From positions 1 through 64,000 of the forward strand of contig NZ_VWPY01000003.1 in the NCBI RefSeq assembly GCF_011839805.1: DNA of 64,000 bases, written 5' to 3'. Under the pieces are notes generated by a model that saw only the letters and a list, made by a program, of their open reading frames with translations, made no database searches and was not told the origin of the DNA. Within the stretch, counting starts at the first letter, position 1; each line of letters opens with the position of its first letter. The position numbers and the translations under genes were made by a program. Below, in pieces: positions 1,906 through 55,288 of the stretch. The stretch is from Kineococcus rubinsiae. GTDB taxonomy: Bacteria > Actinomycetota > Actinomycetes > Actinomycetales > Kineococcaceae.

Positions 1906-1920
1906 CGGCACACTGCTGAC

Positions 1921-2769: not shown

Positions 2770-2866
2770 GGAAACTCCTCGCTCCCCGCTGCATCCGCGC
2801 GGGGCGTCCGCGGAGAAGGAGGAGTGAACGGGTCGCACCGCGGCCCGCGAACTCCGAGGAGAAACC

Positions 2867-5755: not shown

Positions 5756-5922
5756 GGCGGGCGCCGGCGCTGAACGGGTGACGAGCGCGGGCAGGGGTCC
5801 AGGCGTGGTCGCGGGGTCCCGACACCACGGGGTGGAGGGCGTCCTCCCGCCGATCCGCGCCCGCGTCGGTGAAGATCTCCTCCGGGCCGGCGAGGTCCCC
5901 CGGACGCCGTGAGGAGGCCCGC

Positions 5923-12591: not shown

Positions 12592-12604
12592 GCGGTCCGG
12601 GCGC

Positions 12605-12645
12605 ACGACGACGGCGGTGCGTGAGCTCCGCACCGCCGTCGTCGT
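12605..12645. terminator. bidirectional hairpin between convergent genes
   Basis: Positions 12605-12621 and 12629-12645 are perfect complements (17 bp) around a seven-base loop. It lies between the 3' ends of the MalG-type permease and the glutamine synthetase gene, so it can terminate both. No T-tract follows, as is usual in high-GC actinobacteria. Confidence 0.85.
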
Positions 12646-12663
12646 CCCCGCTGCTCCGAGGAC

Positions 12664-14841: not shown

Positions 14842-15008
14842 GGGGTGCTCCTGGGCGTCTCGCGGGACGGCCGGAGCGGGAACGACCCGGCCGCACGGGT
14901 CACCGCGGACCCTAGGGACCTCGTGCACCGATCGTGTTTCGTCCGTGTGTCCGGCGGATGCCGTGACTGACCGTCACGCCACCTGACGCGTCGCCGCGAG
15001 CCCGGCGG

Positions 15009-39394: not shown

Positions 39395-40087
39395 GGCTCC
39401 ACTGTGTCAGACGGTGACCCAGTGACAGCGGACGGTGCAAGTCTCCGGTCGACTGGTCGGCCGCCGCGGGACATGCGGTCACCGACGGCGGCGCTCGTGC
39501 TCAGGTGCCGCGGGGGCGAGTGACGACGATGAGTTCGACGGCAGAGTCGTCGCCGGCCCGCTGAAGCACCTCGGACACGTCTGGCCAGGCCAGTCCGCCG
39601 ATGGTGCTCCTGCACGAGCCGCACTGAGGCTGCCCCTCGTGTCAGTGTCCTCGGGCGCACTCGTTGCCTACGTGAGAGGGCGTGTCATGACGGCAGGCGA
39701 GAGCGCGACACGCAGTCGCAATATGGTGGGGCAGGTCAGCCGGCTGGTCGACTTCCTGCGGCAGCTGGCCTGGGCCGGTGCGAACGTCCGGGAAGATCTG
39801 GGCGTCCACCTCGACGCGCAACGCTCCACGGCTGCGGAGTGCGCTACGCCCCAGCCCTGGAGGTGACTCCGCGTCGCCGACGCTCCCTGAGTCCGGCACC
39901 AGGTCGTCATCAAAGCATCACGCGCCTGGATCAGGCCGGGGTCCTGGGGCGAACAGCATGCCTCCGCATTGTTGGAATGCATTGGTGCGACCGTGGGTGA
40001 GGCCGGAACCGGTCAGGAGCCGTGGTGAGATGGTGGCTGGCGAGCCGCAGCCGGAGCGCCAGCCGAGCCGAGACGAGCGGAGCGCAC
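39395..40087. other. 693-bp divergent intergenic region
   Basis: It separates the leftward DUF3427 helicase from the rightward GmrSD-like gene and must hold both promoters. I see no convincing -35/-10 pair, no tRNA and no long inverted repeat. One short frame (39687-39866, rightward) is listed separately with low confidence. The base composition falls towards the right end, where the AT-richer island core begins. Confidence 0.5.
39687..39866 (+). CDS. short hypothetical ORF, possibly a gene remnant
   Basis: A 59-codon frame starts at ATG 39687 behind 'gagaggg'. Its middle (Gln-Val-Ser-Arg-Leu-Val-Asp-Phe-Leu-Arg-Gln-Leu-Ala) looks like a real amphipathic helix, but the second half has no coding character. 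It may be the 5' end of a gene that has been cut, or chance. I do not recognise it. Confidence 0.3.
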   Translation: MTAGESATRSRNMVGQVSRLVDFLRQLAWAGANVREDLGVHLDAQRSTAAECATPQPWR

Positions 40088-42187
40088 GTGGCGATCACGC
40101 TATTTAAGGACACGACGTACACCCTGCACGGCCTCATCGAGGACATCCGTCGCGGCGAGGTGGCGTTACCCGACATCCAGCGCCCCTTCGTGTGGCCCGC
40201 AGCGAAGGTTCGGGACCTATTCGATAGTATGTACCGCGGGTTCCCGGTCGGCTTTTTGTTGTTCTGGGAGACCGGCGCCGGCGCCGGCGTCCGCCAGATC
40301 GGCATCGACGTCAAGCAGGCACCGCCGCGCCTACTCATCGTCGACGGGCAGCAGCGCCTGACCTCGCTGTTCGCCGTGCAGACCGGCACCAAGGTCATCC
40401 GCGAGGACTATACCGAGGCCCGCATCCGCATCGCTTTCCGGCCTAGCGACGCCACGTTCACCGTCACTGACGCCGCAGTCGAAAAGGACCCCGAATTCCT
40501 CGGCGACATCTCTGCCTTGTGGGTTGAAGGTGAGCGCAAGAAGACCGTCCGCGCCTACCTTGAACGCTTACGGGCCAAGCGGACGGTCGACCAGGTCGAG
40601 GAGGATCGGCTCGACGACGCCCTGGACCGGCTATACGACCTTCAAAATTACCCGTTCAAGGTCGTTGAGCTGTCCGCGGACGTCGACGAGGAGCAGGTCG
40701 CCGAGATTTTCGTCCGCATCAACTCCGAGGGCGTCAAGCTCAACCGCGCCGACTTCATCCTGACCCTGATGAGCGTGTTCTGGGACAAGGGCCGCGCCGA
40801 GCTTGAAGACTTCAGCCGCGCTGCGAAGCAGCCGTCGCTGTCCGGGGCCTCCCCGTTCAACTGGTTCATCCAGCCGCAGCCGCCGCAGATGCTGCGCGTG
40901 TCCGTTGCCCTGGCGTTCCGCCGCGCTGTACTGAAGATCGTGTATAGCCTGCTGCGAGGCAAGGACCTCGAGAGCGGCCTAGTGTCGGTCACCTCCCGCG
41001 AGACCCAGTTCGAGACCCTGCGCCAGGCCCAGGCCAAGACGTTGAACCTGACGAACTGGCACGAGTTCTTGCAGTGCCTGGAAAGGGCCGGCTACCGCAG
41101 CGGCAAGATGATCACCAGCGAGAGCGCAGTCCTTTACAGCTACGCGATGTGGCTCATCGGCCGCGTCGACTACGCCATGAGCGTCCAGGCGCTGCGCGAG
41201 GTCATCGCCCGCTGGTTCTTCATGGTTCAGGTGACCAGCCGCTACGCCGGCTCGTTCGAGAGCCGCTTCGAGTCCGACGTGGCCCGGATGGCCGACGTTA
41301 GGACCGGTGAGGAGTTCATCGAAGTCCTCGACCGCGTCATCGACGACACACTGTCCTCGGACTACTGGACGATCACGCTACCGAACGACCTGGCGACCTC
41401 GGCGTCGCGCAGCCCAGCGCTGAGCGCTTACATCGCCGCCCTGAACATCCTCGACGCAGATGCACTCATGGGCACCGGGAAGGTCCGCTCGCGCCTCGAC
41501 CCAGCCATCGTGGCCAAGAAGGGCATTGAACGTCACCACCTATTTCCCAAGGGCTACCTGCGCGACGTCTTGCAGGTCACCGACACCAAGCAGGTCAACC
41601 AGATCGCGAACATGGCGCTGGTCGAGTGGTCCGACAACATCGCGGTGTCCGACGACCCGCCATCGACGTACTGGCCAGCCCAGGTCGCGGCCCGCAACTT
41701 CCCGACCGACACGCTCGCCCGGCAGGAGCGGCACCACGCCCTGCCCCACGGCTGGACCCTGATGGCTTACTCGGAGTTTCTCGCGGCCCGCCGTAAGCTC
41801 ATGGGCGAGGTCGTGCGAGAGGCCTTCAGCCAGCTCCGCAGCAGCAGTTATGCCCCGAGCTACCCGCAGCCGGCCGCCCCGCCTGCCGGGTCGCCCGCGA
41901 CGTCTCCGGCCGGGGCAGCGCAGTCCTTTGACTCCGTGGCCGACCTCATTGAGCAGGGACTGCTCGCTGTCGGGGCGGTCCTGATGCCGGCCGACGACAG
42001 CGTCGACTCGCTCGCCACGGTGCTGGAGGATGGCCGCCTAGACATCGACGGACAGGTGTACGACACCCCCAGCCAAGCGGCCGCCGGCGCCGGGGCCGCC
42101 GCAGACGGCTGGCACTTCTGGCTCGCGGACACCGCCACCGGGTCTCCGACCCCACTCGCGCAGCTTAGCTCCCCGCCGCCTACGTAA
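40088..42187 (+). CDS. GmrSD-like DUF262/HNH protein with C-terminal RAMA domain
   Basis: The 699-residue protein joins a DUF262 NTPase-like domain, an HNH nuclease and a RAMA-like domain. DUF262 shows ALPDIQRPFVWP near residue 28, the core motif DGQQRLTSL at 86-94 and INSEGVKLNRADF. The HNH part has RHHLFPKGY (His483-His484) and NQIANMALVEW. Residues about 619-685 read like a RAMA (restriction enzyme adenine methylase-associated) domain, ending in GWHFWLADT. GmrSD enzymes cut DNA with modified bases; a RAMA reader could supply recognition of a modification. GTG 40088 lies five bases after GGAG. TTA codons occur at 40166 and 40568. It lies just upstream of the type I operon, on the same strand, 437 bases away. 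Confidence 0.88.
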   Translation: MAITLFKDTTYTLHGLIEDIRRGEVALPDIQRPFVWPAAKVRDLFDSMYRGFPVGFLLFWETGAGAGVRQIGIDVKQAPPRLLIVDGQQRLTSLFAVQTGTKVIREDYTEARIRIAFRPSDATFTVTDAAVEKDPEFLGDISALWVEGERKKTVRAYLERLRAKRTVDQVEEDRLDDALDRLYDLQNYPFKVVELSADVDEEQVAEIFVRINSEGVKLNRADFILTLMSVFWDKGRAELEDFSRAAKQPSLSGASPFNWFIQPQPPQMLRVSVALAFRRAVLKIVYSLLRGKDLESGLVSVTSRETQFETLRQAQAKTLNLTNWHEFLQCLERAGYRSGKMITSESAVLYSYAMWLIGRVDYAMSVQALREVIARWFFMVQVTSRYAGSFESRFESDVARMADVRTGEEFIEVLDRVIDDTLSSDYWTITLPNDLATSASRSPALSAYIAALNILDADALMGTGKVRSRLDPAIVAKKGIERHHLFPKGYLRDVLQVTDTKQVNQIANMALVEWSDNIAVSDDPPSTYWPAQVAARNFPTDTLARQERHHALPHGWTLMAYSEFLAARRKLMGEVVREAFSQLRSSSYAPSYPQPAAPPAGSPATSPAGAAQSFDSVADLIEQGLLAVGAVLMPADDSVDSLATVLEDGRLDIDGQVYDTPSQAAAGAGAAADGWHFWLADTATGSPTPLAQLSSPPPT

Positions 42188-42624
42188 CGGCCTTCTGCTA
42201 ACCCTTGAGGCTTCCGTCGGCGTGGTCTTCGACGCCTTCTCCACGCTAGTGTGCCTGCATTTTCTACGTTATCGCTCACCAAATACGCCACCTTCGGTAC
42301 CCTTGCCGGGTGTTACGCAGTCGCCTGACCCGCCTCGTACTGGCCACCGGACCCATCGCCTTGGCCCGTCCAGCACGCCGCCGGGAACGCCCTGTCATCA
42401 CGAGCCCCGCCCTACCCAACTCCGCCAGGGAGGTTGAGCCATGACCGGAACGCCCACGCGCCTACAGGGCAGATAGCGGATTTCGCCCGTCGTCCCCGGT
42501 CTGGTCGATCCGGTCGCGCGACTCCGCCTACTTCGCCGGCGCCCGTGGGTAATCTTGGAACACTCAGGAATCGCCGGTCTCGCCAGCATGTTTCGCGCCG
42601 ATCCAATCTGGAGAATCACCAACC
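42188..42624. other. 437-bp leader region of the hsd operon
   Basis: This AT-richer gap between the GmrSD-like gene and hsdM must hold the hsd promoter. A TAATCT (42550-42555) is a possible -10 box without a clear -35. A short ORF with a perfect ribosome site lies at 42441-42476. No terminator-grade hairpin was seen after the GmrSD-like gene, so read-through into hsdM is possible. Confidence 0.45.
42441..42476 (+). CDS. 11-codon ORF with a perfect Shine-Dalgarno, possible leader peptide
   Basis: AGGGAGG (42427-42433) stands seven bases before ATG 42441, the best ribosome site in the area. The frame encodes MTGTPTRLQGR and stops at TAG 42474-42476, 148 bases upstream of hsdM. It could be a leader peptide that sets expression of the restriction genes, or the remnant of a lost gene. 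Confidence 0.35.
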   Translation: MTGTPTRLQGR

Positions 42625-44631
42625 GTGTCAGTCCTTTCAAGTTTCGTGTGGAGCGTCGCCGACACGCTGCGCGGTCCCTACGCCGAGGCCGAGTACGGAT
42701 CGGTGATCCTGCCCTTCACGGTGCTGCGCCGCCTCGAGTGCGTGATGAAACCGCACCGCGAGGCGATAGCCAAGATCGTTGGGATGTACCCCGGCGAGCA
42801 GCAGCGGCGCACGCATCTAAAGATCGCCACCCGCAGCGAGGACAGCACGGGGCTGTCGTTCTGGACGACGAGCGCCTACACGCTGGAGAAGGCACTGCAG
42901 GATCCGGATAACCTGGTAGAGAACCTCATCGACTACGTTGGCGGGTTTTCCGCGAACTTAGACGTGTTCAAGTCCTTCGGCTTCGAGAACGTGATCCGCA
43001 CGCTCGCCGACCGCGACCGGCTCGCCCAGGTGACCCGCCACTTCGCGACGATTCCGCTGTCTCCCGACGATGTCTCCAACGCCGACATGGGCGACCTGTT
43101 CGAGAACCTAATTTATCGGTTCGCCGAGTCCGCCAACGACGGTGCGGGTCAGTTCTACACGCCCCGCGATGTCGTGCGACTCTTGGTCGACCTCGTGTAC
43201 GCCGAGGACACCGAGGCGCTGCGCGGCCGCGGCACAGTGCGGTCCATCTACGACCCCACGGCCGGCACCGGCGGCATGCTTACCGTCGCCGACGAGCACC
43301 TGCACAGGCTCAACCCGGACGCGTCCACGGCCCTTTTCGGGCAGGAGATCAACCCGCGCACCTACGCGATATGCAAGGCTGACCTGCTCATCAAGGGCCA
43401 GGACCCCTCGAACGTCCGGCAGGGCGACACGCTCGTCGTCGACTGCTTCGGCGACAGACGCTTCGACTACGTGCTGTCCAATCCTCCGTTTGGGACGGAC
43501 TGGAAGGCCGTCGAGTCAAATGTGAAGGACGAGCACGGGCGCGGCGGGCATGGGCGCTTCGCTCCGGGGCTCCCGGCCGTCGGCGACGCGGCAATGCTGT
43601 TCCTCCTCCACGTCGCGTCGAAGATGCGCGACAAGGACGAGAGTGGCCGCGGCGGCAAGGCGGGGATCGTCCTTAACGGCTCACCGCTGTTCAACGGAGG
43701 CGCAGGCTCTGGGCCGTCGGACATCCGCAGTCACATGCTCGAGAACGACCTCATCGAGGCCATCGTCGCCCTGCCGAACGACATGTTCTACAACACAGGA
43801 ATCGCCACCTACCTGTGGGTGCTGTCGAACGCTAAGGTCGACGAGCGCAAGGGCACCGTGCAGCTCATTGACGCAACAGGCTTGGGCTCGAAGCTGCGCA
43901 AGGCGATTGGCTCCAAGCGGGTCGAGATCACCGAGACGAATCGCGAAGCTGTTGTGCGAGCGTTCAGCGGGACGCAGAGTGAAGGCGACGAGGCTCAGGT
44001 ACCGGCAAAGGTCTTCGCCAACCGGGACTTCGCCTACTGGACCGTCACTGTCGAGCGGCCCCTCCAGCTGCGCTTCCAGTGCACGCCCGAGACGATCAGC
44101 GCTGTGGCCGAGCACAAGACGCTTGGCAAGATCACGGGCCTGACCGAAGCGCTGGAGACGTTCGGGGACGAGCCTCACCTGAATCGGGAAAAGTTCAACA
44201 AGGAGCTCGGCAAGCACCTCGGCGACCAGGGCGTCAGTCTGACCACCGCACAGCGGAAAACGCTCTGGCAGACCATCGGCGTGCATGACAAATTCGCCGA
44301 CATCTGCCTGGACAGTTCGCGTGCCCACAAGGGTGAGCCTGAACCCGACCCGGCGCTGCGCGACACCGAGAACGTTCCGTTCGGCTGGGGCGGCCACTCG
44401 AAGGCGCATGAGGCCCTCGAGGAGACCGTGCAGGCCTACTTCGACGCCGAGGTGAAACCGCACGTCGACGACGCCTGGATCGACTGGTCGAAGACGAAGA
44501 CCGGCTACGAGATCCCGTTCACGCGGCATTTCTACACCTACGAGCCGCCCCGGCCGCTCGAGGAAATTGACGACGACCTCGAGCGGGTCGTTGGCGAAAT
44601 CATGACCCTGCTTCGGGAGGTGGAGGCGTGA
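42625..44631 (+). CDS. hsdM: type I restriction-modification methylase subunit HsdM
   Basis: The 668-residue N6-adenine methyltransferase protects host DNA and is the core of the type I complex. It has the HsdM N-terminal helical domain (about 5-150), the SAM-binding motif DPTAGTGG starting at residue 210, and the catalytic NPPFG at 286-290. QFYTPRDVVRLL before motif I is typical. It is longer than the usual 500-530 residues because of a C-terminal extension. GTG 42625 follows 'ggaga'. The stop overlaps the hsdS start (GTGA at 44628-44631). A TTA codon is at 42958. Base composition is lower in GC than the flanking chromosome. Confidence 0.96.
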   Translation: MSVLSSFVWSVADTLRGPYAEAEYGSVILPFTVLRRLECVMKPHREAIAKIVGMYPGEQQRRTHLKIATRSEDSTGLSFWTTSAYTLEKALQDPDNLVENLIDYVGGFSANLDVFKSFGFENVIRTLADRDRLAQVTRHFATIPLSPDDVSNADMGDLFENLIYRFAESANDGAGQFYTPRDVVRLLVDLVYAEDTEALRGRGTVRSIYDPTAGTGGMLTVADEHLHRLNPDASTALFGQEINPRTYAICKADLLIKGQDPSNVRQGDTLVVDCFGDRRFDYVLSNPPFGTDWKAVESNVKDEHGRGGHGRFAPGLPAVGDAAMLFLLHVASKMRDKDESGRGGKAGIVLNGSPLFNGGAGSGPSDIRSHMLENDLIEAIVALPNDMFYNTGIATYLWVLSNAKVDERKGTVQLIDATGLGSKLRKAIGSKRVEITETNREAVVRAFSGTQSEGDEAQVPAKVFANRDFAYWTVTVERPLQLRFQCTPETISAVAEHKTLGKITGLTEALETFGDEPHLNREKFNKELGKHLGDQGVSLTTAQRKTLWQTIGVHDKFADICLDSSRAHKGEPEPDPALRDTENVPFGWGGHSKAHEALEETVQAYFDAEVKPHVDDAWIDWSKTKTGYEIPFTRHFYTYEPPRPLEEIDDDLERVVGEIMTLLREVEA

Positions 44632-45899
44632 CAGTCGAGGTGGTAGACGCTGTCGCGGAGCGTGTCCACAAGTGGCTCGGTGACCTTCCTGCGGGGTGGA
44701 CAGGCGCTCGCCTGTTCGAGGTCGCGGCCGCCTGGACGAGCAACGTCGACAAGCACACTGTGGACAGCGAGCCAGCAGTCAGGCTCTGCAACTACGTGGA
44801 CGTCTATAAGAACAATTCTATCGTCGACTCGATCGACTTCATGGCCGCCACCGCCACGAGGGGACAGATCCGAAGGTTCCGTATCCGAGTCGGAGACACC
44901 CTCATCACCAAGGACTCCGAGACAGCTGACGACATCGGCGTTCCTGCCTTTGTCGAGTACGAAGCCGACGACCTCATCTGCGGGTACCACTTGGCGGTCG
45001 TCCGGCCCAACGCACGGCGGGTCATTCCCAAATTTCTATACTGGGCGCTCGACTCCGAGCCCATCGCACGCCAGTGGGGTGTCACGGCTGCGGGTGTGAC
45101 TCGCGTCGGCATTCGTAGCACCGACCTCAACAAAGTCACAATCCCGCTTCCGCCGCCGGATGAGCAGCACGCGATCGCCGACTACCTGGACCACGAGACG
45201 GCGCAGATCGACGTACTCGTCGCGAAGCAGGAGGAGTTCACCGGACTTCTTCGGGAGCGGCGAGACGCAATTGCTGATGCCGAATTCCAACGGACCGAGG
45301 GCAAGCGTACGGCGACCGTTCGTCAGGCGCTGATATCCCTGAAGCGGGCTCCCTTTCCAAGTTCGGGCGTCGTGACTGCCTACCGCGACGGAGTCGTCAC
45401 GCTGCGCGCCAACCGGCGAGCCGACGGTTACACAATGTCAGAGGCGGAGGCGGGCTACCAAGGCGTCATGCCGGGGGACATCGTGTTCCACGCCCTTGAC
45501 GGCTTCGCTGGCGCAGTCGGCATTTCAGACAGCGATGGTCAATGCTCACCGGTTTACCACGTCTGCTCGCCCCGGTACGACGACGACGCCGAGTACCTCG
45601 CACTCCTCATCCGGTACATGGGCACGTCTGGCTTCCTCGCCACCCAGGCCCCAAGCACGAGACAGCGGAGCGTCGATTTCCGGAACTGGGGAACCTTCGC
45701 GCGCGTCCCGCTGGTGCTCCCGCCGACGGAGCTCCAGAAGTCGTTCGTCGCCGAGTACCACGAGCAGAGCTCCCGCATCGACGCCCTGATTGCCAAGGCC
45801 GAAGAGCACATCGCCCTCGCCAAAGAGCGGCGCTCGGCGCTGATCACGGCGGCGGTGACGGGGCGGATCAACGTACGCAATGCACGGAAGGCGAGCTGA
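44628..45899 (+). CDS. hsdS: type I restriction-modification specificity subunit HsdS
   Basis: The 423-residue subunit sets the bipartite target of the type I enzyme. It has two target-recognition domains (about 18-180 and 215-370), each followed by a conserved helical spacer: IADYLDHETAQIDVLVAKQ (about 184-202) and the second with SSRIDALIAKAEEHI (about 381-395). The TRDs are unlike each other, so an asymmetric site is expected; the recognition sequence cannot be read. GTG 44628 overlaps the hsdM stop, and hsdR begins three bases after its stop. Confidence 0.95.
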   Translation: MTVEVVDAVAERVHKWLGDLPAGWTGARLFEVAAAWTSNVDKHTVDSEPAVRLCNYVDVYKNNSIVDSIDFMAATATRGQIRRFRIRVGDTLITKDSETADDIGVPAFVEYEADDLICGYHLAVVRPNARRVIPKFLYWALDSEPIARQWGVTAAGVTRVGIRSTDLNKVTIPLPPPDEQHAIADYLDHETAQIDVLVAKQEEFTGLLRERRDAIADAEFQRTEGKRTATVRQALISLKRAPFPSSGVVTAYRDGVVTLRANRRADGYTMSEAEAGYQGVMPGDIVFHALDGFAGAVGISDSDGQCSPVYHVCSPRYDDDAEYLALLIRYMGTSGFLATQAPSTRQRSVDFRNWGTFARVPLVLPPTELQKSFVAEYHEQSSRIDALIAKAEEHIALAKERRSALITAAVTGRINVRNARKAS

Positions 45900-45902
45900 A
45901 TC

Positions 45903-48900
45903 ATGGTGGCACCCGATGGCACCCGCGAGGAGGCGTTCGAAACTGAGATCGCCGAGTACCTCGCCGCGCACGGCTGGGAGTACAGCAAGACGGACGACGG
46001 CTACGACGCCAAGCGGGCGATCTGGCCCGAGGACGTGCACTGGTGGCTGAGTGAGACGCAGCCCGACGAATACGCGAAGGTTGTGCGCGTCGGCACGGGC
46101 GCTGAACAGGTCGACCGCGAGGCGCTGCTGACGTCGCTGGTGTCACGCCTGGACACGCCGATGAGCTCGGGCGGAGGCACCTTAAACGTGTTGCGCCGGA
46201 AATTTTCCCACACCCGCGGCGCGACCGCACACCTGCGGATGTGCCAGTTTAGGCCGGCGACCACGCTCAACAAGGACGTCACCGATAACTACCACAAGGT
46301 CCGCCTTCGCGTTGTCCGTCAGGTGCACTTCTCTTCGAAGCGCGGGGACTCCCGGTCGATCGATCTGGTGCTCTTCGTCAACGGGCTGCCAGTGGCAACG
46401 ATCGAACTTAAGTCGTTCTTCAAGCAGGAGTGGCGCACCGCCGTCAGCCAGTACCGGAACGACCGGCACCCGGCGGGGCAGCCGCTACTCGGCTTCGGCG
46501 CCCGCGCGCTGGTGCACTTTGCCGTCGACGACGACCAGGTGCACATGACGACGAAGCTCGCGGGTGAAAAGACCTACTTCCTGCCGTTCAACCGCGGCCA
46601 CGACGACACCGGTGCTGCTGGCAACCCGCATAACCCGGGCGGAGCCGCCACGTCCTACCTGTGGGAGCAGCTCCTGTGGCGCGACAACTGGCTGGCCATC
46701 CTAGGCTCGCAGGTGTTCTTGAAGACCGAGGCCGACGAGGACCCTGCCACCGGGAGGCTCAAGCGGTCGGCGACGCTGGTGTTCCCGCGTTACCACCAGT
46801 GGCGCGCGGTGAAGAAGCTCGTCGCGACGATCGCCGAGGAGAAGCCGGGCGAGCGCTACCTGATCGAGCACTCTGCTGGGTCGGGCAAGACCAACACGAT
46901 CGCGTGGACGGCGCACCGGCTTGCGCGGCTCCACGACAGCGCGAACGAGAAGGTCTTCGATAAGGTCCTCATTGTCTCCGACCGCCGCGTCCTGGACGCC
47001 CAGCTGCAGCAGGCCGTCGAGCAGGTCGACGACACCGTCGGCACCGTCGCCGTGATCGACTCCGCGGCCGTGCGTCGCTCCGGCGGATCGAAGTCGCGCG
47101 CGCTGCTGGATGCGCTGACCGGCCCAGCGCTGGTCATCGTCGTGACGATCCAGACGTTCCCCTACGTCAAGGGCCTGCTGGAGACAACGCTTGGCGATAA
47201 GCACTTCGCTGTGATCATCGACGAGGCGCACACGTCCCAGTCTGGCAAGACCGCCGCCGATCTGAAGAAGGTTCTCACCGAGGACGGCCTGATCGCCACC
47301 GACGAGGACGTCGACTCCCAGGACGTCGTCAATGAGATCGTCGAGGCCCACGACGCGCGCGAGGCTCAGATCGTCGCTGAGACGGCAGCCCGGGCCGGCG
47401 CTCGAAACATATCGTTCTTGGCGTTCACGGCAACACCGAAGACCAAGACAAAGATGCTGTTCGGCCGCGAGGCCGACAACGGGAAGCCGGTCTCATTCGA
47501 CGTCTACCCGATGCGGCAGGCGATTGAGGAGGGCTTCATCCTCGACGTGCTACGCGGCTACCAGACGTACAAGACCGCGTTCGAGATCGAGCAGCGCAGC
47601 CAGGATGGCGTGGTGACAAGCATCGTCGACGACGGCGACCGCTTGGTGGATCCGAAGATCGCGGCCCGCAAGATCATGCGGTTCGCAAAGCTGCACTCGA
47701 CGAACATCGGCCAGAAGGTCGAGATCATCGTCGAGCACTTCCGCGCGAACGTTGCCCAGCTCCTCGACGGCCACGCCAAGGCGATGATTGTCACCGACTC
47801 CCGGCAGGCCGCGGTCCGGTACAAAGTCGAGGTCGACAAGTACCTCGCGCAGAAGGGCTACGGATACCAGTCGATCGTCGCCTTCTCCGACAAGATCAGC
47901 GACGACGAGTACGGCTTGATCGACGTCACCGAGGCGTCGATGAACCCAGGACTCGGCTCCGACCTCGCGCGGGAGTTCCGTCGGCCCGGGTACCGGCTGA
48001 TGCTCGTCGCCGACAAGTTCCAGACCGGCTTCGACCAGCCGCTGCTGTGCGCGATGTACGTAGACAAGAAGCTCCCGGACGTGCACGCGGTGCAGACGCT
48101 GTCGCGGCTGAACCGCACGTACCGAGCCCCGTCGGGCGAGTTCAAAGACCGCACGTTCGTCCTGGACTTCGTCAACGATCCAGCCGAGGTCCGCGAGGCG
48201 TTCCTCACCTACTACCTCGAGGCCCACGTCGAGACTGAGACCGACCCAAACCTGGTCCACCGGCTCGCTACCAAGCTCGCCCAGGCGCGGATCTACACCC
48301 CGGACGACGTCGAGCGCTACGCGAAGGCGTGGTGGACGCCGACGCAGTCCCACGCCGCGCTGGCCGCCGCGGTGACCCCTGCCCGCGACGAGTTCGCGAG
48401 TAGGTGGGCCGAGGCCGCAGAAGGCCAGGACAGTCAGGCCCTCGACGAGCTGCGCACCTTCCGCAAGGACTGTGGCTCTTACGTGCGGCTGTACGACTTC
48501 ATGTCGCAGGTCGTCGACTACGGAACCAGCGACTTGGAAAAACTGGCCGAGTTCCTGAGGCAGCTCGCGCGGCTGCTCCCGTCCGATGACCTGGGCCCGG
48601 ACGCCGACGTCTCTGGGCTCGAGCTGCGCCGCGTCCGCCAGATCGACCAGGGCAAAGCCCGCATCGGCCTCTCCGGCGACCAAGACACGCCGGGCCTGTC
48701 TGACATCACCGGCGTCGGGTCCGGTATCTCCCACCCCGACCCGCAGCAGGAGCTGCTGTCCGAAATCGTCGCCCGGATCAACTCGCTGTTCGGCGCGGAG
48801 TTCGCCGACCCGCAGATCGAGGGTTTCGTAATCGCTGCAGCAGGAATGGCCGAGGAGGACCAGCGCATCGCCGCCCAGATCGACCACAACGCCGTCGACC

Positions 48901-49115
48901 AGTTCCTGGCTTCGCCTGAACTGCGCGAGACGCTGACTGACGCCGCTGTCCTGAACGAGGGAGCGTTCGGCAAGCTCACCGGCGCGCTGACTGGCGAGAA
49001 TGAGCGAGCCGACGAGTTCATCAGGCTCATCGGCCAGTACCTGTACCAGTCGCGCCGGGTGCGGACGGTCTATGCGACGGATGCCGACGCCGCTTCTTCC
49101 GACGAGAGTGAGTAG
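45903..49115 (+). CDS. hsdR: type I restriction-modification endonuclease subunit HsdR
   Basis: The 1,070-residue subunit translocates and cuts unmodified DNA. The N-terminal nuclease domain has the PD-(D/E)xK pattern Ser-Ile-Asp-Leu-Val-Leu...Thr-Ile-Glu-Leu-Lys-Ser (about 155-175). The SF2 motor has Walker A SAGSGKT at 324-330, DEAH at 440-443, FTATPKTKT and a motif VI in QTLSRLNRTY. The C-terminal helical part (about 830-1,060) would bind HsdM/HsdS. ATG 45903 is three bases after hsdS. It appears intact, so the system should restrict. Confidence 0.96.
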   Translation: MVAPDGTREEAFETEIAEYLAAHGWEYSKTDDGYDAKRAIWPEDVHWWLSETQPDEYAKVVRVGTGAEQVDREALLTSLVSRLDTPMSSGGGTLNVLRRKFSHTRGATAHLRMCQFRPATTLNKDVTDNYHKVRLRVVRQVHFSSKRGDSRSIDLVLFVNGLPVATIELKSFFKQEWRTAVSQYRNDRHPAGQPLLGFGARALVHFAVDDDQVHMTTKLAGEKTYFLPFNRGHDDTGAAGNPHNPGGAATSYLWEQLLWRDNWLAILGSQVFLKTEADEDPATGRLKRSATLVFPRYHQWRAVKKLVATIAEEKPGERYLIEHSAGSGKTNTIAWTAHRLARLHDSANEKVFDKVLIVSDRRVLDAQLQQAVEQVDDTVGTVAVIDSAAVRRSGGSKSRALLDALTGPALVIVVTIQTFPYVKGLLETTLGDKHFAVIIDEAHTSQSGKTAADLKKVLTEDGLIATDEDVDSQDVVNEIVEAHDAREAQIVAETAARAGARNISFLAFTATPKTKTKMLFGREADNGKPVSFDVYPMRQAIEEGFILDVLRGYQTYKTAFEIEQRSQDGVVTSIVDDGDRLVDPKIAARKIMRFAKLHSTNIGQKVEIIVEHFRANVAQLLDGHAKAMIVTDSRQAAVRYKVEVDKYLAQKGYGYQSIVAFSDKISDDEYGLIDVTEASMNPGLGSDLAREFRRPGYRLMLVADKFQTGFDQPLLCAMYVDKKLPDVHAVQTLSRLNRTYRAPSGEFKDRTFVLDFVNDPAEVREAFLTYYLEAHVETETDPNLVHRLATKLAQARIYTPDDVERYAKAWWTPTQSHAALAAAVTPARDEFASRWAEAAEGQDSQALDELRTFRKDCGSYVRLYDFMSQVVDYGTSDLEKLAEFLRQLARLLPSDDLGPDADVSGLELRRVRQIDQGKARIGLSGDQDTPGLSDITGVGSGISHPDPQQELLSEIVARINSLFGAEFADPQIEGFVIAAAGMAEEDQRIAAQIDHNAVDQFLASPELRETLTDAAVLNEGAFGKLTGALTGENERADEFIRLIGQYLYQSRRVRTVYATDADAASSDESE

Positions 49116-49119
49116 GGCG

Positions 49120-51636
49120 ATGGCAAAGGACGCTCCGCATCCGGCGATCAGCGCGGTGCTCCAGGACTCCAACTTGGTGCCGTACTCCGACAAGGACCGC
49201 GGTCCGGTCGGCCTGGCGCACGCGACGAGCCTGTCCTTGGCGCGGGCCCTTGCCGTCGGCTGCCTCAGCCGCCTCGATCCGAGTCTAACGACCGTCGACG
49301 TCTGGGATCCTGCGGCCGGACTGGGATTCGCTGGACGCCTCCTGGTCGATGCGCTGCAGTCGTCGGGGGTAGAAGTCCGCTACCGCGGCCAGGACATCAA
49401 CGAAGCCGCCGTGTCCGCAAGCCTTCGTCGGTTCGAGGGGCTCCGCGACGCCGAGATCGCCCACGCGGACACGTTGACGCACGACGCGTTTGACGACTTC
49501 AGTGCCGATCTAGTGATCGTCGACGCGCCCTGGGGAATGGACTGGCGGCACTCGGCTGCAGCAGTGGAAAGAAGGCAATCCAACGGCGAGTTCGGGTTCG
49601 GTCTTCCTCAGCGCTCCGACAGCACCTGGCTGTTCATCTCCTTGGCGCTCGAAAAGCTGCGCTCGGTGGAGCAGGGCGGAGGACGTGTAGCGGCACTGGT
49701 GAACCCGGGCGCGCTCAGCTCCAGCGGCGTAACCGCAGAGGTCAGGCGAAGGATAGTCGAGGCCGGCCTGCTGGAGTCGGTCACCCGCCTTCCCGATGGT
49801 CTCGCGCCGAACACCGAGATCCCCCTGTACCTTCTGACGTTCTCCACCAGAGCCGAGGACGTCGGTAAGGGCAAAGCGATGATCGCGGACCTGCAGACGT
49901 TGTTCACCACCGAGCACCGCCGCAGGTCGATCCCGGTCGAGGCGTTCCACGAGCTCGACTCCGGGCTGAGGACAAAGAAGTCGGGCCCCCGCAATCGCAC
50001 TATCAGCACCCGCCAGTTCACGCGCCGGGACGCACGGCTGTCGCGCAGCACGAGCCAGGAACGTCAGCTCACGTGGCGCGTCACCACCTACAACGACACG
50101 GCGGTCGACGGCCACTTCCTGGAGACCCGCTACGGCCCAAACCCCAGCGTCGTGTTGGACGAGGAGCCGCGCGAGATCCTCGATCTCGATCCCAGTCGCG
50201 TCTTTGGCGACGACTCGCGCGAAGTGCTTCGAGACATGGCCGCGAAGGGCTGGCCAACCCGGCGCTTGAGCGATCTCCTCGCCCGGGAACCCGAGGCCGT
50301 GACAGATTCCGCGGACGCACATGGCGCACGCCAGCTCTTCGTCCCGACGACCTGGACTGGCAGAGCCGCCACCGACCTATCCGAGACGAACGCCGGCGGA
50401 CGTGTCCTGTCGGTTCAGCTCGACGACGACTCGGTCTACCCGCCCTTTCTGGCCGCATGGCTCAACTCCGAGCAGGGCGTCACCAGCCGGCTCCGAGCAA
50501 TCGACAACGGGAGCTCCGGCCACAATATACGGGCGCTGCGGTCGGACGCTCTCTCACTCATGAGGTGGGCCGACGAGCTCCTCGTGCCGGTCCCGGATCT
50601 CGGCGTCCAGCTCGCGCTCGCGTCGGCGGACGAGCGACTCGGTTCTTTCCAGACGGAGCTGAGCACTCAGCGAGCCACCATCTGGTCTGCCCCGGAGAAC
50701 GCCGACGACGTCGTGAGCAAGATAGCGGGTGCCTTCGACGACTCGCTGACCGTATGGCTAGACCAGCTGCCTTACCCGATCGCATCGGCGCTGTGGACCG
50801 CAGAGTCCGCCCATTCGGTGACGGAGCAGCAGCGAGCCTACCTCCACGCCTGGGAGGCGATCGTGACCTTCCATGCGACGGTATTGCTCTCGGCGAGCCG
50901 CAGCGATCCGGGAAGCGGTAGCGAGACCGATATCGCGATCCGCCAGACCCTGAAAGAGAACCATTTGAGCATCGAGCGGGCGTCGTTCGGCACCTGGGTG
51001 GTCATCGTCGAGAAGACGTCGAAGAACCTGCGCAGCGCGCTCGAGAACGGAGACGCCGACGACGTGGCCCGTGTCCGCCGCGCGTTCGCCGATCTCGGGC
51101 GCGCCGGTATCGAGCGGCTGATCTCCAAGGAGGTCGTCAAGAAGTTCAACGAGCTGAACGGCAAGCGCAACCGATGGTCCGGCCACACGGGCTACACCTC
51201 GGAGCAGGCGCTGAGGACTCAGGTCGACTCGCTCGTCTCGGACCTCAGAGAGCTCCGCGGGCTCCTCGGGAACGTCTGGTCCCAGCTTGTGCTGGTCCGC
51301 CCCGGCAGCGCCAAGCGCCGTCGTGACGGCCTCGTACAGACGGCCGAGGTTGCGGTCGGGACTCGGACGCCTTTTGCAACTCGCGATTTTACCGTGGGTG
51401 AGCACATGTTCGACGATGAGCTCTACCTTGTTCGGGATGGATCGCAATCGCCGCTGCGCCTTGGACACTTCATACAGCTGCGTGCCGCCCCGAGCAGCGC
51501 TCAGTTCACCACGTATTTCTACAACCGTACCGAGGGGACGAGCGTGCGTATGGTGAGCTACCAATACGGATTGGAAAGCGAGCTGCAGGACGACGTGGAG
51601 AGCCTCCGGGCGGACTTCGGCGAGCTGGCGACCTAA
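49120..51636 (+). CDS. fourth hsd-operon gene: degenerate N6-methylase-like protein with HEPN-like C terminus
   Basis: This 838-residue protein starts at ATG 49120, four bases after hsdR. Residues about 25-270 look like an N6-adenine methylase: SAM loop DPAAGLGF at 63-70, but the catalytic motif reads DAPW (135-138) in place of NPPF/DPPY. A TRD-like region follows (about 300-570; WLNSEQG and GHNIRALR). The C-terminal 250 residues are helical, with Arg683-Asn-x4-His689 (RNRWSGH), which fits the catalytic pattern of HEPN ribonucleases, followed by a beta-rich block ending near YFYNRTEGTSVRMVSYQYG. Methylation activity is doubtful; a regulatory or toxic RNase role is inferred. I cannot place it in a named family. 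Confidence 0.8.
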   Translation: MAKDAPHPAISAVLQDSNLVPYSDKDRGPVGLAHATSLSLARALAVGCLSRLDPSLTTVDVWDPAAGLGFAGRLLVDALQSSGVEVRYRGQDINEAAVSASLRRFEGLRDAEIAHADTLTHDAFDDFSADLVIVDAPWGMDWRHSAAAVERRQSNGEFGFGLPQRSDSTWLFISLALEKLRSVEQGGGRVAALVNPGALSSSGVTAEVRRRIVEAGLLESVTRLPDGLAPNTEIPLYLLTFSTRAEDVGKGKAMIADLQTLFTTEHRRRSIPVEAFHELDSGLRTKKSGPRNRTISTRQFTRRDARLSRSTSQERQLTWRVTTYNDTAVDGHFLETRYGPNPSVVLDEEPREILDLDPSRVFGDDSREVLRDMAAKGWPTRRLSDLLAREPEAVTDSADAHGARQLFVPTTWTGRAATDLSETNAGGRVLSVQLDDDSVYPPFLAAWLNSEQGVTSRLRAIDNGSSGHNIRALRSDALSLMRWADELLVPVPDLGVQLALASADERLGSFQTELSTQRATIWSAPENADDVVSKIAGAFDDSLTVWLDQLPYPIASALWTAESAHSVTEQQRAYLHAWEAIVTFHATVLLSASRSDPGSGSETDIAIRQTLKENHLSIERASFGTWVVIVEKTSKNLRSALENGDADDVARVRRAFADLGRAGIERLISKEVVKKFNELNGKRNRWSGHTGYTSEQALRTQVDSLVSDLRELRGLLGNVWSQLVLVRPGSAKRRRDGLVQTAEVAVGTRTPFATRDFTVGEHMFDDELYLVRDGSQSPLRLGHFIQLRAAPSSAQFTTYFYNRTEGTSVRMVSYQYGLESELQDDVESLRADFGELAT

Positions 51637-52153
51637 GTGGAAGGGCTTCGGCACGAGACCCTCAGCGTTCAGGCGCTCGAGCTGGCGAACAGTCGGCCCA
51701 CAAGCCATGCCCTAACCTTGTCGCCCGCCGCCAGCGGGGATCGGGCGACGCCGACTGAACAGCTCACCATCACCCCCTTGTCCGCCTGTTACAGGAAGGC
51801 CCGGGCCCTTCACCGTGACGTGGCGAGCACGGTGGGCCAACCGCGTACGCGTCCCGACCGACCGGTCCTCTACGGTCGAAACCGGCTCATCACGATCTAG
51901 GGTGTAGTCGAGAATGGCGGGTTCCGACTTTGAGTACACCCTCGATCGTGGTGGGCCGTTAATCGCTGTGCGCGTTGATGCTTCTTAGGGCTGCAGGTGC
52001 TGCAAGGAGCGCCGGCCTCTATTTCGTCGCGAGTCAGTGGGTGCTGTTTGCCTCTCGCTTCCGGCGCTTGTGCTTCTGCCGCAGAGAGTGAGCACGCCGC
52101 CGAGCGGCGGTGTCGCCCGCGGGAAGCGCAGGGTCAGATGCTGAAGAAATCTC
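51637..52153. other. 517-bp gap after the hsd operon
   Basis: The gap lies between the 3' ends of the rightward hsd operon and the leftward helicase. It is mostly non-coding and fairly AT-rich. An 87-codon frame begins with GTG 51637 directly after the upstream stop but lacks coding character. A 24-codon ORF from ATG 51914 to TAG 51988 has a protein-like composition (DFEYTLDRGGPLIAV) and includes a TTA codon; it could be the start of a lost gene. No strong terminator hairpin was found. Confidence 0.45.
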
Positions 52154-53860
52154 TTACTGCCACTCATTGTCCAAGCGCTGGACGTCCTCGGCCACGCCCA
52201 CGACCATGTCGAAGAAGCCCTCGTGCGCGCCGTCGCTCGGGTCCTCGACCGTGCCCGCCGCGAAGAGGATGACGAAGGTGACCACGCGACCTCCGGGCTT
52301 GCGGCGGACCACGCGCCCCAGGCGTTGGATCATCTGCCGCCGGCTGCGGCTGGCCGTCGTGACGATGCCGAGGTCCACGGTGGGCAGGTCGATCCCCTCG
52401 TCGAGGAGCTTGGGTGCGGCGAGCGCGAGGAGGCGCTGGCTCTCCAGGGCGTCGAGGTTGTCCTGACGCTCCCGCCGGTCCATGTCGGCGTGCAGTGCCG
52501 CAGCGGCAACGCCATGCTCTCGAAGGCGGTGCGCCACGGCTTCGGCGCTGTCCTTCGTCTGGGTGAAGACGACGGTGCCCTCGGAGGCGTCGATGAGCGG
52601 CGCCATCTCGCCGACCGCGTCGACCTTGCCCACCAGCTCCGCGAGGAGCCGGCGGCGGGCGCGCATGGCGGTCTCGGCGGTCTGAGCCGCGCGCCCCACG
52701 ACGCCCCCGACGCCGGCGAGCTGCCGGAGCCGCTGGTTCAGCGAGATGCCTGACGTCCCCCCGAGCGCACCCATGCTCCGCAGCTTGCGCAGGCTGTCGC
52801 TGACCCGGGAGCTGAGCGTGTCGTACTCCACGCGCTCCTCGTCGGTCATCCCCACGGGGGCGAGCACCAGCCGGAACGGAGACACGACCTGGTCGCGGAG
52901 GGCTCGCTCGAACGTGTACTCGCACACCGTGTTGCCGAAGTACGGGCGGATGTGCGAGTCCACCGCGTCGTCGCTGCGTTCCAGGGTCGCGGTCATGCCG
53001 AGGCGGCGCGTGTACCCGTCGCGCAGGGCCGATGACCAGGTGCCGGCGCCGTAGCGGTGCACCTCGTCGGCGACGAGCAGGTCGCCACCGGTGCCCCGCA
53101 GCAGCGAGCGACGGGCGGCGCTGTTGACGACCGCGACGACCACGTCGGCGCGGGCGGCGTCGCCCTTCTCCTCACCGCCGACCGCGGCGACCGACAGGTG
53201 GGGGAGGTGGGTCGCGAAACGGTGCAGCCACTGGCGCTGCAGCTCCACCGACGGGACGAGGACGGTGGTGGTCATGCCGTCCGCCGTAGCCCGAGCGGCG
53301 GCTGCCAGGCCGAGGTGTGTCTTGCCTGAGCCCGTGACGGCCTCGACGATTCCCCGGCAGCCGTTGGCGTACCAACCGCGCATCGCCTCGTCCTGCCACG
53401 GGTGCAGCGGCAGGCCCCAGGATGCCGGGACCGCCACGGCCGACATGCGTTCGACGGGAGGTCGGGGCGCCACCGTCTGCTGCTCCAACGAGGCGAGCAG
53501 TTCCTCCATCGCCGTCGACGGCGCCTCATCGCCCGCGGCGCGGGCGTCCTGCTGGCGGTGTCGGCGACTCGCCGCAGATGTGGCTTGCCCATCGCCGTCG
53601 GCCGCCGACCACCGGGGGCGGGTGGCGTCGTCCCTGACGAAGGAGGCGCCCTCGCCGGCGTACAGGACCTTGTTGATCTGCGTCTTGTCCGCAGCCCACG
53701 GGGTGCCGGCCAGCCCGAGGCCGATCTCGCGCGCGGTGGACGACGGTGCCCGGGTCACCTCGGCGAGGACGGCCTCGGCCAGCGACGCCGGTGCCGATGC
53801 GGTGTCCGGCTGCTCGCGGCCCGTGGCCGGCACCGCGTCGCTGGGCGTCGTGTCGGTCAC
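52154..53860 (-). CDS. XPB/RadD-like SF2 DNA helicase
   Basis: The 568-residue helicase has an N-terminal winged-helix-like domain (about 25-85), a linker rich in Ala/Arg/Gln, and the two RecA-like lobes. Walker A is VTGSGKT (185-191), then DEVH, the TATLERSDD motif and a C-terminal QRLGRVVRRKPGG motif VI. It resembles XPB- or RadD-type ATPases that remodel or unwind damaged DNA. GTG 53860 is nine bases after GGAGGAG; the open frame extends to 53911. It is divergent from the Fic gene. Whether it belongs to a defence pair or is a repair gene is open. Confidence 0.88.
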   Translation of the reverse strand: MTDTTPSDAVPATGREQPDTASAPASLAEAVLAEVTRAPSSTAREIGLGLAGTPWAADKTQINKVLYAGEGASFVRDDATRPRWSAADGDGQATSAASRRHRQQDARAAGDEAPSTAMEELLASLEQQTVAPRPPVERMSAVAVPASWGLPLHPWQDEAMRGWYANGCRGIVEAVTGSGKTHLGLAAAARATADGMTTTVLVPSVELQRQWLHRFATHLPHLSVAAVGGEEKGDAARADVVVAVVNSAARRSLLRGTGGDLLVADEVHRYGAGTWSSALRDGYTRRLGMTATLERSDDAVDSHIRPYFGNTVCEYTFERALRDQVVSPFRLVLAPVGMTDEERVEYDTLSSRVSDSLRKLRSMGALGGTSGISLNQRLRQLAGVGGVVGRAAQTAETAMRARRRLLAELVGKVDAVGEMAPLIDASEGTVVFTQTKDSAEAVAHRLREHGVAAAALHADMDRRERQDNLDALESQRLLALAAPKLLDEGIDLPTVDLGIVTTASRSRRQMIQRLGRVVRRKPGGRVVTFVILFAAGTVEDPSDGAHEGFFDMVVGVAEDVQRLDNEWQ

Positions 53861-54010
53861 CGAGAGAACTCCTCCAGATCGTTGGAGGCAGCGGCCTCCT
53901 GGCACGACCATCTTGACGGGCTGGGCGTGGGGAGCCGTCGTCGACCGATCCTGCGGCGGCGATGACGAAAGGAATCGGCCTCGTGATCAGCTTTCCGTCG
54001 GAACCTTGAA

Positions 54011-54023
54011 TATGCTTGTCGGG
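54011..54023 (+). promoter_or_regulatory. candidate -10 box giving a leaderless fic mRNA
   Basis: TATGCT (54011-54016) ends six bases before the GTG start at 54023, so transcription would begin at or beside the start codon and the mRNA would be leaderless, which is common in actinobacteria. No Shine-Dalgarno precedes the GTG. The -35 region is not recognisable. Confidence 0.4.
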
Positions 54024-55288
54024 TGTCTCGCCTTGTCAGCGCCGTCTGGAGCCCCGACCCCGGGGACGTCAGCGGCCTGCCGCGACGGCACCGCCGCCCT
54101 TGTCGCTACGACGCCTACGTGCCGGATCCGTTGGTGGGCCGAGAGGTCCTGCTCCCTGCGGACGTCGCCGCCGACGTCTCCGACGCTGAACGCGCGGTCC
54201 TCCAGCTCAACGCGTCGGGGCTGCCCTTCCGCGGCTACGAGGCGATCGCCCGGCTCCTCCTCCGGGCCGAGGCGGTGGCCTCGTCGCGCATCGAAGGTCT
54301 GGAGATCGGCGGCCGGCGACTGGCGCGGGCGGACGCTGCCCGGGCCGCCGACGGCTCCACCCACGACGTCGGAGCGGCGGAGGTCCTCGGCAACATCGAC
54401 GCGATGCGTGCTGCGGTCGACGACGTCGCCCGGCGACCACGCCTCGACCTCGACGCGATCAGCGACATCCACCGCGCCCTCCTGGCCGGGACGCGCGACG
54501 CCTCGTGGGCGGGCAACTACCGCGATCGGCAGAACTGGATCGGTGGATCGAGCTACAACCCGTGCGCTGCAGACTTCGTGCCGCCGCCACCCGACGAGGT
54601 TCCCGAGCTGCTGACGGACCTGGTCGAGTACCTGGAGTCCGACCTCCACCCGCCCGTGGTGCAGGCCGCCCTCGCCCACGCGCAGTTCGAGACCATCCAC
54701 CCCTTCGCCGACGGCAATGGGCGCACCGGCCGCGCGCTCATCCACGTCGCGCTCACCCGCCGCGGGTTGAGCCCACACCACGTCCCGCCGGTCAGCCTCG
54801 TGCTGGCCACCCGCAGCCAGGACTACATCGCCGGGCTCGAGAGCTTCCGCACCGAGGGGCACGACGGGCCGGCCCGCTGGATCGCGACCTTCGCCGCCGC
54901 CACGACCGAGGCCTGCGAGCGGGTGTCGGGACTGACCGACGGGCTCGCCGCCCTGCAGGGGCGCTGGCGCGAGGCGACCGGGACGGTCCGCGGGGGATCG
55001 ACGGCGGCGCAGCTGCTCGACGAGGTGCTGCCGCAGACCCCGGTGTTCACGGTCGCCCAGCTGGTGACGCTCACCGGCCGCTCGACCCAGGCCGTCAACG
55101 AGGCCGTCGACCGTCTACACAGTGCCGGCGTGCTGCGACAGACCACGGCCGGGCGGCGCAACCGCGCCTTCGAGGTCGACGGGCTCATCGACCTCATCAC
55201 CGGTTTCGAGCGGTCGCTGGCCTCACCGGCGGGTGACACCGCCGTCGAACCGCCGGCACGACCCGTGCCGCGACGCCCCGCCCGCTGA
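54023..55288 (+). CDS. fic: Fic family protein with self-inhibitory motif
   Basis: Fic enzymes transfer AMP or another nucleotide group to protein hydroxyls. The 421-residue protein has an N-terminal Fic_N-type region with the inhibitory helix SSRIEG (87-92; Glu91 would block ATP), the Fic core with HPFADGNGRTGR (from His226) and a C-terminal winged helix (about 340-395) that may bind DNA and control its own gene. All catalytic residues are present. The inhibitor is in the same chain, so no antitoxin gene is needed. The target is unknown. It is divergent from the XPB-like helicase, 162 bases away. Confidence 0.93.
   Translation: MSRLVSAVWSPDPGDVSGLPRRHRRPCRYDAYVPDPLVGREVLLPADVAADVSDAERAVLQLNASGLPFRGYEAIARLLLRAEAVASSRIEGLEIGGRRLARADAARAADGSTHDVGAAEVLGNIDAMRAAVDDVARRPRLDLDAISDIHRALLAGTRDASWAGNYRDRQNWIGGSSYNPCAADFVPPPPDEVPELLTDLVEYLESDLHPPVVQAALAHAQFETIHPFADGNGRTGRALIHVALTRRGLSPHHVPPVSLVLATRSQDYIAGLESFRTEGHDGPARWIATFAAATTEACERVSGLTDGLAALQGRWREATGTVRGGSTAAQLLDEVLPQTPVFTVAQLVTLTGRSTQAVNEAVDRLHSAGVLRQTTAGRRNRAFEVDGLIDLITGFERSLASPAGDTAVEPPARPVPRRPAR

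Follow-up and report, generated by a model that had tools for sequence, protein, structure and literature searches.

Why does a type I restriction operon carry, behind its own modification, specificity and restriction genes, a fourth gene that resembles a methylase at one end and a ribonuclease (RNase) at the other? The question is raised by a 64,000-nucleotide stretch of Kineococcus rubinsiae (contig NZ_VWPY01000003.1, positions 1 to 64,000; hereafter the window), in which this gene, here called X, follows hsdR. X very probably consists of a methylase-like head, a target-recognition domain (TRD) and a helical tail, and the tail, with an invariant RNxWxGH motif, probably adopts the HEPN fold. 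We see an even chance that X, carried by type I restriction operons as an accessory fourth gene, encodes an anti-phage effector complete in itself, in which a pseudo-methylase head would gate a HEPN RNase.

A fourth gene behind hsdR

X is an open reading frame (ORF) of 838 codons beginning with the ATG at 49120; the hsdR stop codon TAG ends at 49115, so that four bases (GGCG) separate the two genes. Pfam and PADLOC matches give the order hsdM-hsdS-hsdR-X and thus bear out an earlier note on this DNA, which had placed X fourth in a type I restriction-modification (R-M) operon, four bases after hsdR. The features on which the argument relies are the following.

42625..44631, + strand: hsdM, type I modification subunit, 668 residues, intact NPPF (Pfam N6_Mtase, E 2e-57, and HsdM_N, E 1e-20; PADLOC MTase_I, 803 bits; NPPF read in the translation)
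44628..45899, + strand: hsdS, specificity subunit, 423 residues (Pfam Methylase_S; PADLOC Specificity_I)
45903..49115, + strand: hsdR, restriction subunit, 1070 residues (Pfam HSDR_N and SWI2_SNF2; PADLOC REase_I)
49120..51636, + strand: gene X, putative pseudo-methylase with TRD and HEPN-like tail, 838 residues (ORF, Pfam, alignment and models)
49222..50019, + strand: N6-methylase-like domain of X, about residues 35-300 (Pfam N6_Mtase and model against type I M subunits, as detailed below)
49306..49329, + strand: S-adenosylmethionine (SAM) loop DPAAGLGF of X, residues 63-70 (translation, alignment)
49522..49533, + strand: motif IV position of X, DAPW, residues 135-138 (translation, alignment)
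50230..50589, + strand: predicted TRD of X, about residues 371-490, with a long helix after it (structural match to enzymes with methylase and TRD)
50740..51285, + strand: HEPN-like helical domain of X, about residues 541-722 (profile matches, structure model)
51166..51186, + strand: R683-N-R-W-S-G-H689 motif of X (R, N, W, G and H invariant in 22/22 rows)
51286..51633, + strand: C-terminal part of X, strands to about residue 771 and low confidence from about 784 (AlphaFold2 model)

A start at 49000, giving an ORF of 878 residues that runs upstream into hsdR, was ruled out, close relatives beginning at the residue that matches 49120. A scan of 42200-52200 for promoters and terminators found none, and repeat and tRNA scans gave nothing useful.

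Conservation was read from an alignment (A2) of 22 rows, which omits L033 (in-frame stop) and L035 (protein accession the same as that of L034); the alignment used for folding (A3) additionally omits L034. The row of L051 is counted without about 120 N-terminal residues, and since these lie in another frame the gene is probably frameshifted near its start. L057 and L058 look like repeats of L045 and L052 (incompletely checked) and are not counted, and L059-L062, from genomes G701 and G739, were found after A2 and stand outside the 22. The clade of the window comprises 16 loci (window, L033 and L036-L049). With 21-22 sequences, structure and profile work stands on slender ground, and the diversity comes mostly from two Bacteroidota and five Streptomyces-type rows.

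The head is modelled as an adenine methylase with a drifting catalytic motif

In Pfam, full-length X matches N6_Mtase alone (residues 60-269, E 2e-20). An AlphaFold2 model built from 21 family members (pLDDT 77, pTM 0.61) was compared with solved structures, and among the matches listed the folds closest to the head are the PacII and type I M subunits, the best being the type I M subunit 3lkd (Z 28.4, root-mean-square deviation (rmsd) 2.2 over 276 residues, model residues 19-363). A longer part, residues ~34-516, matches the methylase-TRD enzymes M.BseCI, CamA and M.TaqI among those listed (Z ~20-21, rmsd mostly 6-7 over 300-400 residues). In the model, residues up to about 520 thus fold like a DNA adenine methylase together with its TRD, a domain between methylase part and tail that the earlier note had overlooked. 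A Methylase_S match occurs in one of the 22 members and is marginal (E 0.67). HsdM_N was matched neither by the window's X nor by any other of the 22 members at E<=1, and the HsdM equivalog TIGR00497 scores 20.2 bits on X, below its cut-off of 242.75.

Active N6-adenine DNA methylases typically carry (N/D/S)PP(Y/F/W) at motif IV, and 21 of the 22 rows depart from this pattern. The motif reads DAPW in 11 rows (window, L036-L041, L043 and L045-L047), EIPY in five (L034, L050-L053) and FPPF in two (L054, L055), with DSPW (L042), DPQW (L044), DPPW (L048) and DAPL (L049) once each; the companion HsdM of the window has kept its NPPF. The SAM loop follows the pattern DPxxGxG in all 15 clade rows (DPAAGLG in the window) and in none of the seven others, which have all lost the second glycine (G69): the five EIPY rows have DPACGxA, L054 retains the first glycine only and L055 neither.

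The earlier note had called this head a dead methylase, and its readings of the SAM loop, of DAPW and of R683-N-x4-H689 within KRNRWSGH are all correct. The drift of motif IV beside an invariant RNxWxGH does point to a pseudo-enzyme, and the window's X probably does not methylate, as far as its sequence tells. A point against this reading is L048 (Agrococcus; X at 1231-3756), the sole row with a canonical DPPW, whose X may still be methylating. Active enzymes with NLPY or NIPY motifs also exist, such as KsgA/Erm. Because the window's SAM loop is intact, L048 has DPPW and KsgA/Erm work with such motifs, we only infer the inactivity of the window's X; the claim of a dead methylase is likely, but unproven.

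The tail is probably a HEPN domain

Residues R683, N684, W686, G688, H689 and G691 are invariant in the 22 aligned members, which come from Actinomycetota and Bacteroidota and include relatives 20-85% identical to X. H689, within RNxWxGHxG, is the only invariant histidine of the protein, and the remaining four Rx4-6H pairs are kept together in just 2-10 of the 22 rows. The conservation of the arginine and the histidine in homologues had been named beforehand as a check, and both residues are present in every row, as is N684, the asparagine that usually follows the arginine in HEPN motifs. Mean pairwise identity among the 15 clade proteins is highest for the HEPN part (75.7%), followed by the C-terminus (72.3%), the methylase (70.5%) and the TRD (61.0%). 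The motif alone was rejected as proof of a HEPN domain: in 2000 composition-preserving shuffles of X, RNx4H arises in 4.2% and some Rx4-6H in 99%, which makes the motif weak by itself and lets conservation decide.

Profile comparison adds weak support. The best Pfam match of the window's tail is HEPN_Swt1 (PF18731; E 0.057, 14.1 bits against a cut-off of 27.5) and spans the motif. A profile-profile alignment (hhalign) with 12 Swt1-type HEPNs of the same class placed RNxWxGH on RNxWAH with a score of 24.9 (25.8 in another run), beating 200/200 column shuffles (mean 12.1, standard deviation 2.2, maximum 21.2), while three further stretches of 190 columns from the X alignment reach 12-16 and the reversed target 16.9. 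When the window's genome was scanned with HEPN_Swt1, two places reached E<=1, the X tail among them (E 0.08). A second HEPN_Swt1-like match in this genome, on contig C84 of G000 (17899-18063; L117), has E 1.8e-4, under the family cut-off. Folded alone, residues 538-723 are predicted to be all-helical (pLDDT 85.6, pTM 0.83).

Several results weigh on the other side. HEPN_Swt1 is matched by one of ten tails scanned and by one of the 22 full-length members (E 0.2), and the hhalign probability is just 13-16%. The motif region accounts for most of the profile signal, since the C-terminal piece of the alignment that includes the motif gives 22.4 by itself, and the genome scan is weak because three of 14 control genomes also give matches. 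Tails compared with Pfam, PADLOC, NCBIfam and PHROGs reached no cut-off or convincing E-value. A Foldseek search of the tail against the PDB gave no match below 0.001, with HEPN chains at E 1.1 and 1.7, and VIA-align lists among its 50 entries ten HEPN entries (about four distinct proteins, some of which we take to be HEPN) at Z 5.4-6.7, on a par with unrelated helical bundles at up to 7.2. The divergent relative L062 (genome G701), which lies outside the 22 and is ~26% identical over residues 61-820, has DVPM at motif IV and a RTAGAH that keeps the R and H but loses the N and W. A sequence search of the PDB with the tail profile returned three matches (E 0.75-5.3), none of them HEPN.

The HEPN-type tail proposed in the earlier note therefore stands on its invariant motif and weak profile matches; the predicted fold, for which comparison with HEPN structures had been suggested, is confidently all-helical, but the comparison does not set HEPN entries apart from other bundles. 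On this balance we consider the HEPN fold probable. According to passages of a 2013 survey, most HEPN domains carry the Rx4-6H motif as a metal-independent RNase site (PMC3710099), and by this analogy the tail may well be an active RNase, with somewhat less assurance than the fold itself.

X is exchanged between restriction systems

Identities were compared across the 12 loci that have all of X, M and R (66 non-independent pairs, so that the comparison is descriptive). The Spearman correlation is 0.98 between M and R and 0.25 each between X and M and between X and R. At L041, X is 75% identical to the window's, with HsdM at 51% and HsdR at 46%, and at L046 the values are 68%, 33% and 28%; at L048 (partial HsdR) and L049, HsdR is 83% and 80% identical and X just 63% and 61%. 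A group of eight loci, the R-M lineage of the window, was named from identities before trees were built. It holds together in the HsdR tree with support 100/100 (with a long-branch warning among the other five), whereas on the X tree this lineage takes three label changes or more, and the X data reject a constraint keeping the eight loci together (approximately unbiased (AU) test, p 2.3e-6). As judged from these sequences, X is exchanged between distant type I systems, whose HsdM and HsdR are 28-56% identical to the window's.

Nor does X follow the site specificity of its operon, because identity to the window's protein is 24-65% for HsdS (10 loci) and 55-85% for the TRD of X (the 14 other clade rows). 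The idea that this TRD tracks HsdS specificity was rejected: at L033 and L038, HsdS is 37% and 39% identical to the window's and X 82% and 83%.

Distribution and genomic surroundings

Scanning the species-genome collection by tail, within the limits of a sequence pattern, yielded 20 loci, and four plasmid records also have X. The gene is present in Actinomycetota and in two Bacteroidota genomes. Among viral contigs, 70 pattern matches yielded no confirmed case; none of the phage records has the X tail and four have the methylase part only. When 396 genomes of the phylum were searched with full-length X, the whole protein turned up in the window's genome only, the other matches listed being to the methylase part. 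The tail profile matches five of 394 sampled genomes of the class, G739 among them by broken fragments only, and one of 247 genomes in the class of G752, namely G752 itself. L060 and L061 (G739) appear to be a decayed copy of X that still shows LRNRWTGHGG. In the Gordonia plasmid pJH63-1 (L033), an in-frame stop at 13438-13440 lies between the TRD and the tail of X, and the tail persists in an open frame that carries its own gene annotation, which indicates a decaying copy or a split form. X can pass unnoticed as a second modification gene, because the two plasmid forms examined are annotated as 'N-6 DNA methylase' and PADLOC models score the window's X as a type I methylase.

Within the clade, hsdR lies upstream of X at 13 of the 16 loci and ends at most 5 bp from the start of X, or overlaps it, at 11. 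The distance is 231 bp at L041 and 1950 bp, with two opposite-strand ORFs between, at L049; hsdR was not found on the L037 and L042 loci, and L043 is cut by a contig end. Outside the clade, X does not stand directly behind hsdR. It is divergent from hsdMSR at L054, lies near type III R-M mod/res genes at L052, has hsd genes on the opposite strand ~3 kb away at L050 (Streptomyces phaeofaciens), and stands behind Gabija GajA/GajB genes (4496-7263) at L055 (Psychroflexus). At L037 (Gordonia), Gabija GajA/GajB genes lie downstream of X (11293-14889), so that Gabija pairs adjoin X in two unrelated hosts. Between X and the oppositely oriented hsd operon of L050, a protein kinase with PD-T4-6 model matches is encoded (11067-12794, - strand).

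Whether homologues always follow hsdR had been named as a point to check; they do at the tightly coupled clade loci, but no hsdR stands directly upstream at L037, at L042 and at the Streptomyces-type and Bacteroidota loci. HsdR relatives occur in 50 of 394 genomes, and among the 30 best-scoring hsdR loci, examined with flanks of 1.5 kb (shorter behind two), X follows the window's and L073 (probably the same genome as L045) and was not found in the flank behind the other 28. The genome of L037 has an intact X frame, and no HsdR_N match was found on its contigs of at least 3 kb. A suicide module that is built into its restriction system, as the earlier note imagined, is therefore at odds with the data, since X has been exchanged between systems 28-56% identical, follows 2/30 hsdR loci and exists in one genome without an HsdR_N match.

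In the window, a GmrSD_N and RAMA protein (40022-42187, +; DUF262-type, probably modification-dependent restriction) lies directly 5' of the hsd operon. Downstream of X are a helicase matching the PbeA and dnd_restrict_1 models (52154-53911, -) and a Fic protein matching the SoFic model (54023-55288, +). In a genome of the same genus whose helicase is 91% identical to this one, hsdMSR-X was not found within 20 kb around the helicase.

What X may do

HEPN active sites form between two copies. By what is common in HEPN biology, the tail of X would act as a metal-independent endoRNase whose site is formed between two copies, and the pairing or release of two tails would be the switch. The pseudo-methylase and TRD head would be the sensor and, whether empty or occupied by harmless DNA or by the restriction complex, would keep the RNase off. 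The RNase would be freed when the head meets foreign (unmodified phage) DNA, an anti-restriction protein that mimics DNA or a restriction complex that has stalled, this trigger being a guess, and would then stop translation, so that infection aborts.

The frequent place behind hsdR suggests that X backs up restriction, as PrrC does, and defence surroundings (Gabija beside L037 and L055, type III R-M beside L052) were also counted for an effector. The intact X of the L037 genome implies that its restraint cannot depend on HsdR alone. Since an intact X occurs in a genome where no HsdR_N match was found, and X has passed between distant systems, the restraint most likely lies within X, in the manner of RloC, and we lean slightly towards control of the RNase by the head of X rather than by HsdM, HsdS or HsdR alone. 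An intact X in a genome without R-M also fits a harmless protein, which counts against the effector. One further reading, less likely than not, pictures X as a decoy receptor, the former methylase serving as bait for agents that attack or feed the DNA-binding cleft of the restriction enzyme, be they DNA-mimic anti-restriction proteins of the Ocr/ArdA type or unmodified foreign DNA, and firing the attached HEPN RNase; a head with its own sensing surface would make the module pluggable behind distant type I systems or able to live alone.

Among the rival explanations, a guard of the PrrC type survives best, and we find it rather doubtful: X would be an RNase kept dormant by touching the type I complex directly, and it would become active once that complex is inhibited by an anti-restriction protein. 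The tight coupling of hsdR and X in 11/16 clade loci speaks for it, as does the precedent of PrrC, a HEPN RNase in a type Ic operon that is activated by T4 Stp, according to two papers (PMC3710099, PMC12707154). The exchange of X between R-M systems (AU p 2.3e-6) stands against it, and the intact X of L037 implies that a dedicated HsdR partner is not required.

We think it unlikely that X serves as an additional, M2-like modification subunit of the kind seen in PacII M1M2S, or as an orphan methylase acting on DNA or RNA, with a tail that only binds nucleic acid. This would agree with the fold matches of the head, with its intact SAM loop, with the DPPW of L048 and with the NLPY/NIPY enzymes. 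It is opposed by the drifting motif IV, the loss of G69 in 7/7 rows outside the clade, the lack of an HsdM_N match in all 22 members and the RNxWxGH tail as the most conserved part. Least likely is an addiction gene of toxin-antitoxin kind that stabilises the operon, its RNase neutralised by a neighbour's product, for although X has a toxin-like motif, occurs on a plasmid (L033) and is absent with hsdMSR beside the same flanking helicase in the same-genus genome, its neighbours vary by locus and no gene common to all was seen (no systematic neighbour comparison was made).

Comparison with known systems

HEPN RNases beside restriction systems are already known; what is new in X is a putative sensor head of the methylase-TRD kind. 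In the passages available, the 2013 survey states that restriction-linked HEPNs fuse to endonucleases, helicases and ATPases 'but not to the methylases' (PMC3710099), and X, if correctly read, would be a recurrent exception to this rule. Among the papers that searches of an open-access library listed, none was recognisable by title or abstract as describing a methylase-TRD-HEPN protein (subscription papers lay outside this scope). If our reading of X as a gated effector is true, a methylase built for DNA can lend its scaffold to the sensing of infection, and restriction systems can pass such a suicide module among themselves as a cassette.

The head of X is closest, among the solved folds listed, to PacII M1M2S and type I HsdM, from which X differs in lacking an HsdM_N match and in having its own TRD and HEPN-like tail. 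With BrxX/PglX, M.BseCI and CamA it shares an N6-methylase followed by a TRD and a helical spacer; as described in one paper, BrxX has an N-terminal bundle and ends in a winged helix-turn-helix (type 1) and a coiled-coil-like extension (PMC12839542), whereas X has a drifted motif IV and a HEPN-like tail. None of the 16 PADLOC matches of X is to a BrxX/PglX model, the neighbourhoods not having been searched for brx genes. Swt1-type HEPNs (PF18731), found for instance on DUF499 ATPases, have a similar RNxWAH motif; in X the spacing from R to H is longer by one residue (RNxWxGH), and the tail is joined to a methylase-TRD head, not to an ATPase.

PrrC of EcoprrI is a HEPN-type RNase encoded within a type I (Ic) hsd operon and a proposed second line of defence; X, a putative RNase, is linked to such an operon in the window and at 12 other clade loci. 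As the same survey has it, the head of PrrC is an ABC-ATPase and EcoprrI keeps the nuclease silent (PMC3710099), whereas the head of X is a pseudo-methylase with a TRD, and the gene lies behind hsdR, switches partners and is also found where hsdR is missing. RloC, again in that survey, has a HEPN tail under its own N-terminal head and is independent of R-M (PMC3710099), in which it resembles X; its head is a Rad50-like ATPase. The ABC-ATPase head of PrrC and RloC is absent from X, whose head is N6_Mtase with a TRD, and X most likely resembles these two proteins in logic, not in sequence.

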